Notes under the pieces: generated by a model
The model's database searches: none
Told to the model about the DNA's origin: nothing
What the model saw: only the letters and a program-made list of their open reading frames with translations
Part shown: positions 50,243 to 55,388 of the stretch, piece after piece
Layout: every line of letters starts with the position of its first letter
Numbering within the stretch: position 1 is the first letter of the stretch
Position numbers and translations under genes: made by a program
From: a bacterium
GTDB lineage: Bacteria > Lernaellota > Lernaellaia > JACKCT01
NCBI GenBank assembly: GCA_019912885.1
Contig: JAIOHV010000006.1
Location: 62,001 to 126,000, forward strand
DNA: 64,000 nt
Direction: 5' to 3'

Positions 50243-50593
50243 GATCGTCCCCACACCCGATAATTGTGTCCGCCCCGAGCGCGCCCTCGCGCTTGCCGAT
50301 CGCCAAGACGCCTGGACGGCTCGGCTCGTTCGGTGGCGTCTATTTGTTACGGATAACGCGCCGGCAGGAACCGTCGCACTACTTCTGTATTATCGGTCAC
50401 TTCGAAATATTCTTTAATTACGACGCGTAGGGGTAGGGAACGCGCAGGCGCAAATGGCAGGGGGGCGCCAAAACGGGCGTCGCGACGCGGGGAGCATGGA
50501 TATTTGGGGGGAAGCCGCCGAGTGGAATCGAACCACCGACCACCTCCTTACCAAGGATCGAGATGCGTAGAAAATATGTCGTTAAATCAATGA
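50243..50593. other. 351-bp junction between the chromosome and the mobile element
   Basis: It holds the upstream region of the sensor kinase, then non-coding sequence, the tRNA-Thr fragment at 50513-50557 and the 3' flank of the integrase gene. The A/T-rich stretch 50338-50425 (TTTGTTACGGATAACG, TATTCTTTAATTACG) could contain the kinase operon promoter, but I cannot place -35/-10 boxes safely. Confidence 0.5.
50513..50557 (-). other. attL-like site: 3' fragment of a tRNA-Thr(GGT) gene
   Basis: On the minus strand the sequence reads as the tRNA 3' half. Anticodon loop TTGGTAA (50554-50548) has anticodon GGT, followed by stem GGAGG, variable TGGTC, T-stem GGTGG, T-loop TTCGATT, T-stem CCACT and acceptor strand CGGCGGC (50520-50514). 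The 5' half (acceptor, D-arm) is absent: after three paired bases of the anticodon stem the sequence diverges. This is the usual footprint of a tyrosine integrase inserting in a tRNA gene. Confidence 0.8.
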
Positions 50594-51688
50594 CTAATGT
50601 GACTGCATAATCGCGTTGACAATAGGTTTGCAGGATGGGAGGACCGAGAGGGCGGCTTTGAGGTCGGCGTCGGTGATGCGGGCGTAGCGCTGCTCCACCG
50701 TGGAGGCGAAGGCCAGGTCCTTCCCCCAGCCGAGAACGACGCGGCGGTATTGGTCATCGACGCCCGCGCGAAGCAGCTCCATGTGGAAGGAAGCGCGCAG
50801 ATCGTGGAGGCGAAAGGGGATGCCGGCTTTTTTCGAGGCGCGCTGGATCGCCTTCCGGATCGAATCGACGGGCACCGGCCTGATTTTCTTGCCGGCCTTG
50901 TAGGTGATGACGCGGCCGGACGCCTTGCGCGGGCCGAAAACCTCAAGGAGTCCCTCGCGGATGGGAATGCGGCCGACCGCCTTGCGGGAGGCCGCCTGCG
51001 TCGCGGTCGGGTAGATCATCCCGTCGTCCGTGATCTGGCTCCAGTCAAGGGCGAGGACGTGGCTGTGCCGAAGCCCGGTGAAGCGGGCGATGAGCATCGC
51101 GCGCTTCACGTGGTCGGCGCGGCCGCGGCAAAGTTTGACGAGCTGCTCGTCGGTGATCTCCCGGTGAACGGGCGACGCCTCGGGCAGGCGGTCCACGTAT
51201 TTGCAGGGGTTGTGCGGAGGGCGGACGCGCCCGCTTTTGACGCCGTAGGTGAACACCGCGGACAGGACCGTGATCTCCCGGTTCACCGTTGCCGGCGCGA
51301 TTTTCTTCCCGTGTTTTGTCTTTTCGTCCTTGCGCGCGCGCCGGTATTTTTCGATGTCGTCGTAATCGATGTCCGCGACGACCCGGCGCCCCCACCGCTC
51401 CTCGAAGCGATCGAGGATCCAGCTCTCGGCCTTTTCAAAACTCGCCTTGGATTCGGCCGCGTGCTTCCGGTACGCCTCGACAAGCGTCGCGAAGGTGATC
51501 GCCCGCCCGTGGCCGGCAAGCCGCTCGGCGAGTTCACCTTGCAATTTGTGCTCGACGTCTTTTGCCTGCCGCATCGAGCCGTAAACGACCTTGTGCCTTC
51601 GGACGAGCCGCCCGTCGATGACGCGGGAGACGTCGACGATGTAGCCCTTCAGGCCGGTGCGGGGATGGGCGTGGGGACGGATGGGCAT
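50594..51688 (-). CDS. int: Tyrosine-family site-specific integrase
   Basis: 364 aa. The N-terminal arm-binding and core-binding regions (TFATLVEAYRKHAAESKASF, TVNREITVLSAVFTYG) are followed by the catalytic domain with Arg in FTGLRHSHVL, HxxR in RLHDLRASFHME and the nucleophile Tyr in TVEQRYARI. The Lys-turn (YPTATQAASRKAVGRIPI) is also recognisable. It should catalyse integration and excision at the adjoining tRNA-Thr site. It is the last gene of the leftward operon, 5 bp after the SIR2 gene. Confidence 0.95.
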   Translation of the reverse strand: MPIRPHAHPRTGLKGYIVDVSRVIDGRLVRRHKVVYGSMRQAKDVEHKLQGELAERLAGHGRAITFATLVEAYRKHAAESKASFEKAESWILDRFEERWGRRVVADIDYDDIEKYRRARKDEKTKHGKKIAPATVNREITVLSAVFTYGVKSGRVRPPHNPCKYVDRLPEASPVHREITDEQLVKLCRGRADHVKRAMLIARFTGLRHSHVLALDWSQITDDGMIYPTATQAASRKAVGRIPIREGLLEVFGPRKASGRVITYKAGKKIRPVPVDSIRKAIQRASKKAGIPFRLHDLRASFHMELLRAGVDDQYRRVVLGWGKDLAFASTVEQRYARITDADLKAALSVLPSCKPIVNAIMQSH

Positions 51689-51693
51689 GGTAG

Positions 51694-53451
51694 CTATGGC
51701 AAGGAGCCAAGCTCATCAAGTTTAACATAATCGAATAAGTATCGAAAATTGAGTCGTTCGAGTTTGCCGATAGCCTCGGTATACTTCTTTTTAAATTCAT
51801 CAGCGCTTGACGCTCCGATTGCAAGAAGCAGCTTCTTAAAAAAAGCGTAACTCGCGGCGCGGCGCAATAAAATTGGCGACTGTTTTAAATAAATGAGCGT
51901 CATTGGGTACCACAATCGACCTTCGTTCATGGCCGATCGCGCAAATAGAAAAAATTCTGCCTCCATGAAATCATCAAATGAAAGTAATCGTGCCAAGCGG
52001 CCGCTTATGTATCGATAATTTATCGTATCTGCAGCTACGGAGACCTGACGCTTTCCAGTCAATCTTGAATTGCGAAGGTCGTCGAGCGAACGAAGGTAAG
52101 ATCGAAATTCCGTAAAATGCTTATACGGGTCGGGGCGTCTATCGTCGGAAAAAATTTGACGAGATAGCAAGCGATTTAATTCTTCCCATCGCTCGAATCG
52201 AATTAAAGCCGCAATGAATGCAACAAACATTTCCCACGCAGCAAACCGGAATCCGTCGAAGTCGGTGTCTGAGAATCTTCCTCCTGGAAAACTCTTTGGC
52301 AGATCGCACAATGGCAGAATGTAACCAAATCCCTCATATATCGCGTCATTGACTTGCGGAATTCCGAACTCGACGGCTTCGATGATCGCTTCGATAAAAG
52401 ACGCCACGATTTCCTCGGCTGATTCGATTTGCGCAACAATCGCATCATCCTCATATTCGTATTTCGAAAAGTCGGGGCGCGTCTTTTCGAGCGCGCCAGC
52501 AACTCCTTTCATATAATTCGTGTATTTTGCGGCGATTGCTGCGTGGTTTTGAGAGCCCAACAGTTTCATTGTTGAATCGCGCAATTCGGCGACGGACGGC
52601 TGTCCCTCAAGCGTCCCGGCAAGTGCATCCAAGCGATCAGCCGCGTCCAAAAACGAACGCAGAAAGTCGGCGGCTCCGATACCCGTGACACAATCAGAAT
52701 TGGTGCGAGTGAGATATTCGTCGACGCTCGGAATTGGGGCATTTGGGTCGATCCAGCAGAGCGGAAAGTGATTCGTCTTGCGTCTCTCTATGATCGACTG
52801 AAGTCCCTTATCAAGGCCCGCGTAGCCAAGGACGATTACGCCGTGCTCGCTAAAGCGTCGTCGCAACTCCGCCGTCATTTTTTTGGGGAGGGCCGCGAGT
52901 TCTGCCGGTGTTACCCTGAGCAAATCACCCCGATCGAGTGATCCGTGCGGTTTGTATATACGAACGCGATAACAGTGCTCCAGCGGCTCGCACCCTTCGA
53001 CGTCCGCGTCCGAAACGATGACTTGCGGTTTCAGATTCTTTGCGTGCAACGCGTTCTCGATGCAGCAATCGAAATTGGTCGTAACAATCGCTCGTAAAAT
53101 GCCGCGTCGCGCGAGTTCGGCAATCAATTGATGGGCTTCGCCTGCCGGTTTGCCGCCGATGTAGTCGTCGAGAAAACTTCGGCGTTGTGCATCCGTCGAA
53201 TAAATCTCCGACGTCAATTCGGAAAAAGATTTTTCGGCATATTCGCTCCCCAAAAACCACGCCTCAAGCATATCGGGATCCGGCCGGCCGGTTCGGCCCT
53301 TTAGGACGTACAGTTTGGCGGCAATTTCCATCATCAGATCCCACGCGGTGTGAATACCGGCGTCTTTGGATACGCCGGCGCCAACGACGAGAATCCACTG
53401 CTTTTTGCCCGGGCGAGCATTAGCGGCGAGGCGGATAATGCTGCGGTCCAT
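51694..53451 (-). CDS. SIR2-domain protein, probable NAD-depleting anti-phage effector
   Basis: 585 aa. The N-terminal SIR2_2-like domain has GAGVSKDAGI at 24-33 (NAD loop), TTNFD at 124-128, KPHGS with the catalytic-type His at 169, and VLGYAGLD at 207-214. The C-terminal 330 residues are helical and unlike any domain I know; they may sense the trigger. SIR2 proteins in Thoeris, DSR and related systems deplete NAD during infection. This one lacks SLOG, APAZ or HerA neighbours. Visibly A+T-rich compared with flanking genes, so probably acquired separately. Confidence 0.88.
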   Translation of the reverse strand: MDRSIIRLAANARPGKKQWILVVGAGVSKDAGIHTAWDLMMEIAAKLYVLKGRTGRPDPDMLEAWFLGSEYAEKSFSELTSEIYSTDAQRRSFLDDYIGGKPAGEAHQLIAELARRGILRAIVTTNFDCCIENALHAKNLKPQVIVSDADVEGCEPLEHCYRVRIYKPHGSLDRGDLLRVTPAELAALPKKMTAELRRRFSEHGVIVLGYAGLDKGLQSIIERRKTNHFPLCWIDPNAPIPSVDEYLTRTNSDCVTGIGAADFLRSFLDAADRLDALAGTLEGQPSVAELRDSTMKLLGSQNHAAIAAKYTNYMKGVAGALEKTRPDFSKYEYEDDAIVAQIESAEEIVASFIEAIIEAVEFGIPQVNDAIYEGFGYILPLCDLPKSFPGGRFSDTDFDGFRFAAWEMFVAFIAALIRFERWEELNRLLSRQIFSDDRRPDPYKHFTEFRSYLRSLDDLRNSRLTGKRQVSVAADTINYRYISGRLARLLSFDDFMEAEFFLFARSAMNEGRLWYPMTLIYLKQSPILLRRAASYAFFKKLLLAIGASSADEFKKKYTEAIGKLERLNFRYLFDYVKLDELGSLP

Positions 53452-53462
53452 TATATTCCCGA

Positions 53463-53972
53463 CTAACCGATTAAGGGCATGCCGTTGATGCCCCAGTTCC
53501 CCATCGGGTAACGCTGAATTGAATTTGCAAGATTAATTTGGGCGTGCGGCACATTTTGTACGGTTGGAAGCCAAGTGCGCGCAGCGTCAACTATATCGCC
53601 GCAAAATATATCTATCCTTAATTGAAGTACAGGGGCACTGGATGCGTGAATAATATTATTGTGTATCGCATCCGGCGGTTCGACAAAAACAATCCTGTGC
53701 CGGCTTTTCCGGTGATTTGTCAGGCCCTGGTGGAGCAGCGAGCAGCGAAAATAATAACAGTCGAAGCCGGTAAGAAAAATTTCTCCTCCCCACCCTGCGT
53801 ATTTAGACGCGACATATCGGTCAAACCAGTCTTGATATTTCATTCCGGTTGCCTGTCCGTCTACGGATTCAATCGCGCCGCAAATATCAGGAACAGAGAG
53901 TGCTGTAAATAGTGCAGCGAAATATGCGTCTTGAGCAATTGCATAATTAATCGCGTTTAAAAGTTCGTTCAT
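53463..53972 (-). CDS. Unknown small protein with R-x4-H motif, partner of the SIR2 gene
   Basis: 169 aa, A+T-rich like the SIR2 gene. The core contains WFDRYVASKYAGWGGEIF and then DCYYFRCSLLHQG, where Arg76 and His81 form an R-x4-H pattern reminiscent of HEPN RNases; this similarity is weak and unverified. The C-terminal half contains HRIVFVEPP and LQLRIDIFCGDIVDAARTW. GGAG for its start lies in the end of the ImmA-like gene. The SIR2 start follows after 11 bp, so the two genes should be made together. Confidence 0.75.
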   Translation of the reverse strand: MNELLNAINYAIAQDAYFAALFTALSVPDICGAIESVDGQATGMKYQDWFDRYVASKYAGWGGEIFLTGFDCYYFRCSLLHQGLTNHRKSRHRIVFVEPPDAIHNNIIHASSAPVLQLRIDIFCGDIVDAARTWLPTVQNVPHAQINLANSIQRYPMGNWGINGMPLIG

Positions 53973-53976
53973 ATTC

Positions 53977-54651
53977 TTACTGCTCCGTTGTTATAAGCAC
54001 AATCCGCAACACCTCCGCCGCCCCAGCCGGCGGTATCCGGTACGCCTCCACCGCCTTTCCCGCGCGGGCGACGGTGACTTTGGACTCCCCCAGGTAGGCG
54101 CGGCCGAGGGCGAGGTATTCGGCGTTGGTCAGGGCGAGGTCCGAGCGGTCGGACTGCTTGGGCCCCATCCGCCATTTCACCCGGCCGTTGTCGACGACGG
54201 TGATGACGAGGTCGTCGCGGAAGTGGAGCAGGCGGCGGGCCAGGGCCTCATGGCTTGCCTCGGGAAAGGCTTTTTTGAGTTCGAAGAGGTCGGCGCCGGC
54301 GCGGACCAGGCGCTGGAATTTCGGGCGCGGGATGAGAAGGGCCGCCGCGCCGCGGTCAAAGAGCTTTTCGTCCTCGTGCGTGACGGTGAAGCCCCGCAGG
54401 CGGACCAGGTGCTCCAGGATCTCGTGCGCGATGACAAACTGCCGGCGCTCGCGGCTGGATTTCGCGTTGACGTGGATCTCCGTCCCCTTGCCGGTGTCGA
54501 CGAGCGCCCCGCCGAACTGCCGGTTGTTGTCGCGGCGAAATCGGACGACAAGGCCCAGGCGGTCGGCGAGCTTGTTCGGGTTCTCTGTCCCGTGCTCGCG
54601 GACCAGGTTGTTGGCGATCTCCTCGACGACGCGGGCCGTCACGCGCGGCAT
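53977..54651 (-). CDS. ImmA/IrrE-like protein with shifted metal motif
   Basis: 224 aa from MPRVTARVV, chosen because GGGAGGGG lies just before it; an ATG 27 bases upstream is also in frame. The layout is that of ImmA/IrrE peptidases (NPNKLADRLGLVVRF, then RRQFVIAHEILEHLV). The metal site reads HEILEH, i.e. H-E-x-x-x-H instead of the usual H-E-x-x-H. ImmA cleaves the element's repressor to release it. The gene lies between the XRE repressor and the SIR2 pair, matching the int-immA-immR order of ICEBs1. Confidence 0.83.
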   Translation of the reverse strand: MPRVTARVVEEIANNLVREHGTENPNKLADRLGLVVRFRRDNNRQFGGALVDTGKGTEIHVNAKSSRERRQFVIAHEILEHLVRLRGFTVTHEDEKLFDRGAAALLIPRPKFQRLVRAGADLFELKKAFPEASHEALARRLLHFRDDLVITVVDNGRVKWRMGPKQSDRSDLALTNAEYLALGRAYLGESKVTVARAGKAVEAYRIPPAGAAEVLRIVLITTEQ

Positions 54652-54735
54652 GTTTTCCCCTCCCGTACTTTCCTTCATTTCGCATCTCGACTTGAGTCGG
54701 TGCCCTGTCTCACGCGGAGACGCGGAGGCCGGGGC

Positions 54736-54832: not shown

Positions 54833-55321
54833 TCACAGGTTTTTCCCCATCCGGTACGTCGCCAGAAAGGAATCCAGCAGAAACGGCGTGATCTTCTTGG
54901 CCTGAAAAAGCAGGTTGCGAAGAAACGCGACCTCGTCGGCCTGAAGATGCCGCCTGCGCTCGGCGATGTAGGCCTCGACCTCCGGGTAGCGGGACTGCTC
55001 GCGCGCGGGCGGGGCTTTCGCGGCCCCGGCCGATTTTTGCAGATGCCCCAGTTCCTTGCCGATGACCTGCTTCGCGCGGCCTTCCTCCAGGGCCTCGTAT
55101 TCGTAAACCAGCTCCCAATAATCCGGGTCTTCTTTTATCGCCTCGGCCATCTTGCGCACCAGCTCAAGCGACGGCCCGGGCGCGTCTTCGCGTTCGGCGC
55201 GGGAGATCGTCCCGTAATGAACGTCCATGGCTTTTGCCATTTCGGTCTGCGTAAGGCCGAGCCTCTCCCTTGCGTAAACGGCAAATTGCGCGAGCGTTTT
55301 TGGCCGGGATTCCGGTGACAT
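54833..55321 (-). CDS. XRE-family repressor (ImmR/CI-like)
   Basis: 162 aa from MSPESRPKT; an ATG 9 bases upstream is alternative. The HTH is at about 20-75 (TQTEMAKAMDVHYGTISRAERED). The C-terminal half (EVEAYIAERRRHLQADEV) is helical and could be the oligomerisation or ImmA-cleavage region. It is divergent from the next HTH gene, with 103 bp between, forming the element's lysogeny switch. Leftward it leads the operon with the ImmA-like, SIR2 and integrase genes. Confidence 0.88.
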   Translation of the reverse strand: MSPESRPKTLAQFAVYARERLGLTQTEMAKAMDVHYGTISRAEREDAPGPSLELVRKMAEAIKEDPDYWELVYEYEALEEGRAKQVIGKELGHLQKSAGAAKAPPAREQSRYPEVEAYIAERRRHLQADEVAFLRNLLFQAKKITPFLLDSFLATYRMGKNL

Positions 55322-55388
55322 GGAAGACATTTCCTACCACGGGGGGCGGGCGCGGGAAACCTTTTTTGAGAAAGAATCAAAAAACTTC

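Follow-up and report, generated by a model that had tools for sequence, protein, structure and literature searches.

Two adjacent genes carried by a bacterial prophage raise the question of whether they form one defense module or are separate passengers of the same element. The window, i.e., the whole stretch of 64,000 nucleotides that was analyzed, encodes a 585-aa protein headed by a SIR2 domain and, 11 bp upstream on the same strand, a protein of 169 aa (Table 1). The first-pass annotation had described them as two A+T-rich genes lying this close together between an ImmA-like gene and int, and the open reading frames, the base composition, and the Pfam and PHROG matches agree with that description. 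The G+C content is 0.506 in the SIR2 gene and 0.467 in the 169-aa gene, compared with 0.61-0.68 in the neighboring genes, and the corresponding GC3 values are 0.54 and 0.45 against 0.75-0.91. Because of this low G+C content, both genes look imported into their prophage. The seven genomes of the source phylum yielded no further copy of the two genes, apart from a weak SIR2 match in one of them (G006). Back-translation scans of genome contigs and viral contigs returned no relatives; both proteins are too diverged for this method, which makes the result uninformative.

Table 1. Positions of the features at the SIR2 locus, numbered within the window.
Feature	Position	Strand	Evidence
tRNA-Thr(GGT) 3' half, 45 bp, probable attachment-site copy adjoining int	50513-50557	(-)	identity to intact tRNA gene
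Tyrosine integrase (int)	50594-51688	(-)	Pfam Phage_integrase E 6e-10; phrog_1 E 4e-40
SIR2-headed gene, 585 aa	51694-53451	(-)	ORF
All-helical bSEFIR-type C-terminal region, residues ~266-585, probable sensor/regulatory region	51694-52656	(-)	PADLOC bSEFIR, tblastn, blastp, hhalign
SIR2 (NADase-type) domain, residues ~1-265	52657-53451	(-)	PADLOC PDC-S65, Pfam SIR2_2, motifs, Foldseek
Small gene, 169 aa	53463-53972	(-)	ORF
ImmA/IrrE-type metallopeptidase	53977-54678	(-)	Pfam Peptidase_M78 E 4e-8; PADLOC capP E 7e-14
HTH (Xre/Cro-type) regulator, first gene of the leftward run	54833-55330	(-)	Pfam HTH_3 E 9e-11

The N-terminal part of the 585-aa protein contains the motifs GAGVS (24), TTNFD (N126), KPHG (H169), and GYAG (209) and matches Pfam SIR2_2 with an E value of 3e-11, as expected from the earlier claim that all NAD-binding SIR2 motifs are present. 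The catalytic-type residues N126 and H169 are invariant across eight SIR2 relatives. In the Nezha system, mutations of the active-site N and H of SIR2 abolish immunity (PMC11559045). The PADLOC model PDC-S65 matches the whole protein over residues 4-491 (E 4.6e-57) and residues 1-268 alone with an E value of 6.8e-51. The AF2 model, built from seven sequences with a moderate pLDDT of 72, consists of an α/β SIR2 domain and, behind it, an all-helical region, and a Foldseek search with this model retrieved the SIR2 chains of DSR2, ThsA, SPARSA, and KomC (E 2e-6 to 1e-5). The window protein has the SIR2 fold and the N/H pair in common with these proteins, whereas their C-terminal regions and partners are missing from the window locus. 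A Dsr1 match (E 0.034) is confined to the SIR2 half. The labels Thoeris (ThsA), DSR, and short Argonaute were dropped for the 585-aa protein, since the match is limited to the SIR2 domain. The known SIR2 partners (TIR, HerA, and APAZ/Argonaute) had been reported as missing, and the neighbors are indeed HTH, ImmA, phrog_18591, and int genes.

The C-terminal region of about 330 residues, which the first-pass annotation had considered unassignable, matches a described family. When the last 317 residues were searched alone, PADLOC bSEFIR (PDLC03957) was matched with an E value of 2.7e-8 and PDC-S65 with 0.028; the plain PDC-S65 label for the protein was dropped after this split test. When the last 272 residues were run by tblastn against 7.3 Gb of plasmids, two hits appeared: an Azospirillum SIR2 protein at E 7e-13 and, at E 2e-7, a SEFIR protein of Pseudomonas luteola. 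Querying 386 genomes with the full-length protein yielded a second SEFIR protein (genome G059, locus L043), whose match is limited to residues 313-549. The PADLOC bSEFIR model matches the P. luteola and L043 proteins with E values of 1e-122 and 6e-130, respectively, and blastp comparisons of the C-terminal region yielded E values of 3.6e-18 to 3e-15. In the pairwise alignment to a SEFIR protein at 3e-15, residues 266-578 of the window protein correspond to residues 163-475 of the SEFIR protein, placing the region directly behind each effector domain. A profile comparison by hhalign between the C-terminal regions of the window and Azospirillum proteins and those of the SEFIR proteins gave an E value of 2.6e-16 (probability 98.7), while the equal procedure against the C-terminal regions of five canonical PDC-S65 proteins gave 0.03 (0.029). 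Judged by these sequence comparisons, the region behind the SIR2 domain is the C-terminal region of bSEFIR; its fold is a tentative one, modeled with moderate confidence as stated above.

The 585-aa protein could instead be an ordinary PDC-S65 member with a diverged C-terminal region, its bSEFIR likeness reflecting a region common to both families. The whole-protein match to PDC-S65 is consistent with such a reading, as is a blastp alignment to a Cupriavidus PDC-S65 protein that extends to residue 436 at 25.6% identity. PDC-S65 is a candidate family of SIR2 proteins of ~573-602 aa, which has the SIR2 domain (E 7e-51) and the overall length in common with the window protein. However, its C-terminal region is without detectable homology to that of the window protein, the motif residues are GSG and GW rather than GAG and GY, and both the split test and hhalign place the C-terminal half with bSEFIR. 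We therefore regard this explanation as unlikely.

The window protein and bSEFIR have in common a C-terminal region of ~310 residues, a single-gene layout, and the NAD+-depleting effector class. They differ in the effector itself, which is SEFIR/TIR-like in the bSEFIR proteins of 474-479 aa and SIR2 in the 585-aa window protein, where Pfam returned no SEFIR (PF08357) match. Further plasmid carriers of the C-terminal region have a SEFIR/TIR_2 domain in front according to Pfam, the scanned SEFIR relatives matching PF08357 with E values of 1e-13 to 1e-19, and the carriers in three genomes (G053, G857, and G858) match a SEFIR profile. All other carriers found show the region behind a SEFIR/TIR-like domain, except for the Azospirillum plasmid protein. 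The architecture joining SIR2 to the bSEFIR C-terminal region was thus found in two proteins, that of the window and WP_137118764.1 of Azospirillum argentinense p5, which is 34% identical over residues 5-556 and is also located near a tyrosine recombinase gene. Since the region stands behind SIR2 here and behind SEFIR/TIR-like domains in nearly all other carriers, the effector appears to have been exchanged. Either SIR2 would have taken the place of SEFIR in front of a single sensor, or SEFIR that of SIR2.

SIR2 and TIR domains lead to NAD+ depletion (PMC10952713), and SEFIR is listed as acting by NAD+ depletion with abortive infection and conferred phage resistance in S. thermophilus (PMC12322248). 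NADase activity, infection sensing by the C-terminal region, and defense are predicted for the 585-aa protein. The N-terminal SIR2 domain would serve as the effector. From its conservation behind different effectors, we infer that the all-helical C-terminal region may be the sensor, which most likely detects infection and keeps the enzyme inactive. By analogy with the tested SIR2 and SEFIR systems, when a phage trigger meets this region, the SIR2 domain would hydrolyze NAD+ and the infected cell would stop, resulting in abortive infection.

The leftward run of the prophage starts with the HTH gene, followed after 154 bp by ImmA and, 4 bp further on, by the 169-aa gene; int begins 5 bp past the SIR2 stop codon. 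Rightward, a CII-like regulator (Pfam Phage_CP76, E 3e-16) is found among the prophage early functions, together with genes for an exonuclease, a Sak4-like annealing protein, a single-strand-binding-like protein, an ERCC4-type nuclease, and a RecD-like helicase. Further rightward, outside the window, come genes for a terminase-like ATPase and for a ParB-like protein. The contig (C6) ends 8.3 kb past the window, and the prophage is visible up to that point, with one end in view. A tRNA-gene fragment beside int is what integrases targeting tRNA genes usually leave behind. An intact tRNA-Thr(GGT) gene on a different contig of this genome (C197:9552-9596; L066/L069) contains all 45 bp of the window's tRNA-Thr half at 100% identity, and the half probably marks the prophage attachment site. 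With the integrase on one side and the repressor/ImmA genes on the other, the SIR2 gene is probably carried as cargo; the earlier proposal of a defense-type SIR2 protein in an integrated element is supported.

The same arrangement could be read as a gene that serves the prophage itself, for example by superinfection exclusion, or by controlling NAD+ for prophage maintenance when switched by ImmA/HTH. The position of the gene within the run from HTH to int and the capP match of ImmA would fit such a service, but there is no pointer to an NADase in prophage maintenance, and in molecular terms superinfection exclusion and defense would be one and the same. This makes a role confined to the prophage quite improbable. 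As a separate observation, the capP score of ImmA and the HTH gene suggest that a CapH/CapP-like or ImmR/ImmA-like switch could control the cargo.

The 169-aa protein belongs to phrog_18591, with a match (E 3.7e-35) that covers almost all of its length. Profile searches of the two proteins, proposed at the outset as a check, assigned both parts of the SIR2 protein and placed the small protein in a phage family; Pfam, NCBIfam, and PADLOC returned no match for the latter. Its relatives are found in phages of Escherichia (ECP1), Gordonia (Bowser), and Arthrobacter (Popper; 35 records), on plasmids of Cetobacterium (beside phage genes), Klebsiella (beside phage-like genes), and Sulfitobacter, and in several genomes. 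Of the 386 genomes sampled from across the domain, 4 contain a member of the family, one of them being the genome of the window, and the ECP1 copy has no match in E. coli genomes. W49, Y73, R76, H81, and G83 are invariant in all 16 aligned rows and are shared with the phage family (ECP1, Bowser, and Popper), to which the match is full-length. R76-x4-H81 is therefore more than a chance motif. The AF2 model (pLDDT 85) is mainly helical with a small β insert, and R76 lies in helix 69-80. The motif DxYxxRxxxxHxG presumably resembles that of HEPN proteins, and it is this motif that suggests a HEPN identity; none of the 16 family members matched a Pfam HEPN profile, and neither a PDB sequence nor a PDB fold (Foldseek) was matched. 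Of the original description as a small R-x4-H partner that is HEPN-like at best, the motif has thus held up, while the HEPN likeness found no profile, sequence, or fold to match. In the two Sulfitobacter plasmid copies (L006:4959-5495 and L007:4896-5471), K and Y occupy the two motif positions of R-x4-H, and these copies are possibly inactive or repurposed; a gene for mannose-1-phosphate guanylyltransferase is located upstream of each.

The first-pass annotation had proposed that the SIR2 gene and the small gene form a two-gene module, and had named a lack of co-occurrence elsewhere as the observation that would speak against it. Such a lack was found. None of the 24 distinct phrog_18591 loci outside the window (L004-L010, L014-L016, L021-L028, and L037-L042) has a SIR2, SEFIR, or bSEFIR C-terminal gene in its flanks, and none of the 19 SIR2 or SEFIR/bSEFIR C-terminal loci (L003, L043-L046, L048-L058, and L060-L062) is flanked by a phrog_18591 gene. 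The 24 loci, which come from several bacterial phyla and have flanks of varying length, include some near-identical phage copies and represent fewer independent cases. In phages, the phrog_18591 gene stands alone near lysis or integrase genes, without SIR2, whereas in the window it adjoins the SIR2 gene. The closest SIR2 relative, that of Azospirillum p5, has no phrog_18591 neighbor and is flanked by a different, unknown 294-aa protein and a NACHT protein. The 169-aa gene is a stand-alone member of a phage/prophage accessory family, and probably an independent neighbor rather than an obligate partner of the SIR2 gene.

In a module, the 169-aa R-x4-H protein would be a HEPN-type RNase, toxin, regulator, or second effector working with SIR2. 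The tight spacing on one strand and the shared low G+C content are compatible with such co-function, and the R-x4-H motif is kept throughout the family, but the two co-occurrence surveys, the Azospirillum neighborhood, and the failure of HEPN profile, sequence, and fold searches argue against it, leaving the module improbable. A broader scheme is very doubtful as well. In it, a single conserved phage-sensing region would repeatedly have changed effectors, working with either a SEFIR/TIR-like or a SIR2 NADase, and this prophage would also have recruited the phage-derived R-x4-H (HEPN-like) protein, as regulator or additional effector, into a new SIR2-HEPN operon. The likeliest role of the 169-aa protein is that of a phage-borne accessory protein, possibly an RNase, acting on its own. 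Taken as a whole, the locus is probably best explained by a self-contained, single-gene anti-phage NADase, effector-exchanged and carried as prophage cargo, next to an independent phage accessory gene.

Swaps of the effector ahead of a common module are already known, as in TIR-APAZ and SIR2-APAZ and in NACHT proteins with TIR or SIR2 (PMC10952713), and the joining of SIR2 to the bSEFIR C-terminal region is therefore a variation on this theme. No description of this architecture was found in the literature searched. That literature, with subscription papers mostly outside its scope, contained no paper naming PDC-S65 or bSEFIR or joining SIR2 with bSEFIR, which is weak evidence; a SIR2 domain, a SEFIR domain, and phage were found together in one 2009 Argonaute survey only. 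If the proposed exchange is true, the bSEFIR C-terminal region would be a portable infection sensor, given that it backs two unrelated NADase folds, and the APAZ region in SPARTA/SPARSA offers a parallel. What bSEFIR senses, and by which part, would then become testable, in that domain exchange should keep the phage specificity and change the effector only.

The bSEFIR relatives on plasmids and prophages are single genes with varied neighbors, and several of their loci have features of their own. On Azospirillum p5 (L003:3036-9534), the genes for the 294-aa protein, the SIR2-bSEFIR protein, the NACHT protein, and an integrase form one run beside TniB/Mu-type transposition genes, which looks like a small mobile defense island. 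In Sinorhizobium medicae pSymA (L054:821-3591), a bSEFIR-type gene is split by an IS3-family transposase gene, and a similarly split match occurs in four records. On a Paenibacillus larvae plasmid (L057:2522-3963), the annotation assigns the SEFIR domain and the bSEFIR C-terminal region to separate genes with a 4-bp overlap, reflecting either a frameshift or a split system.
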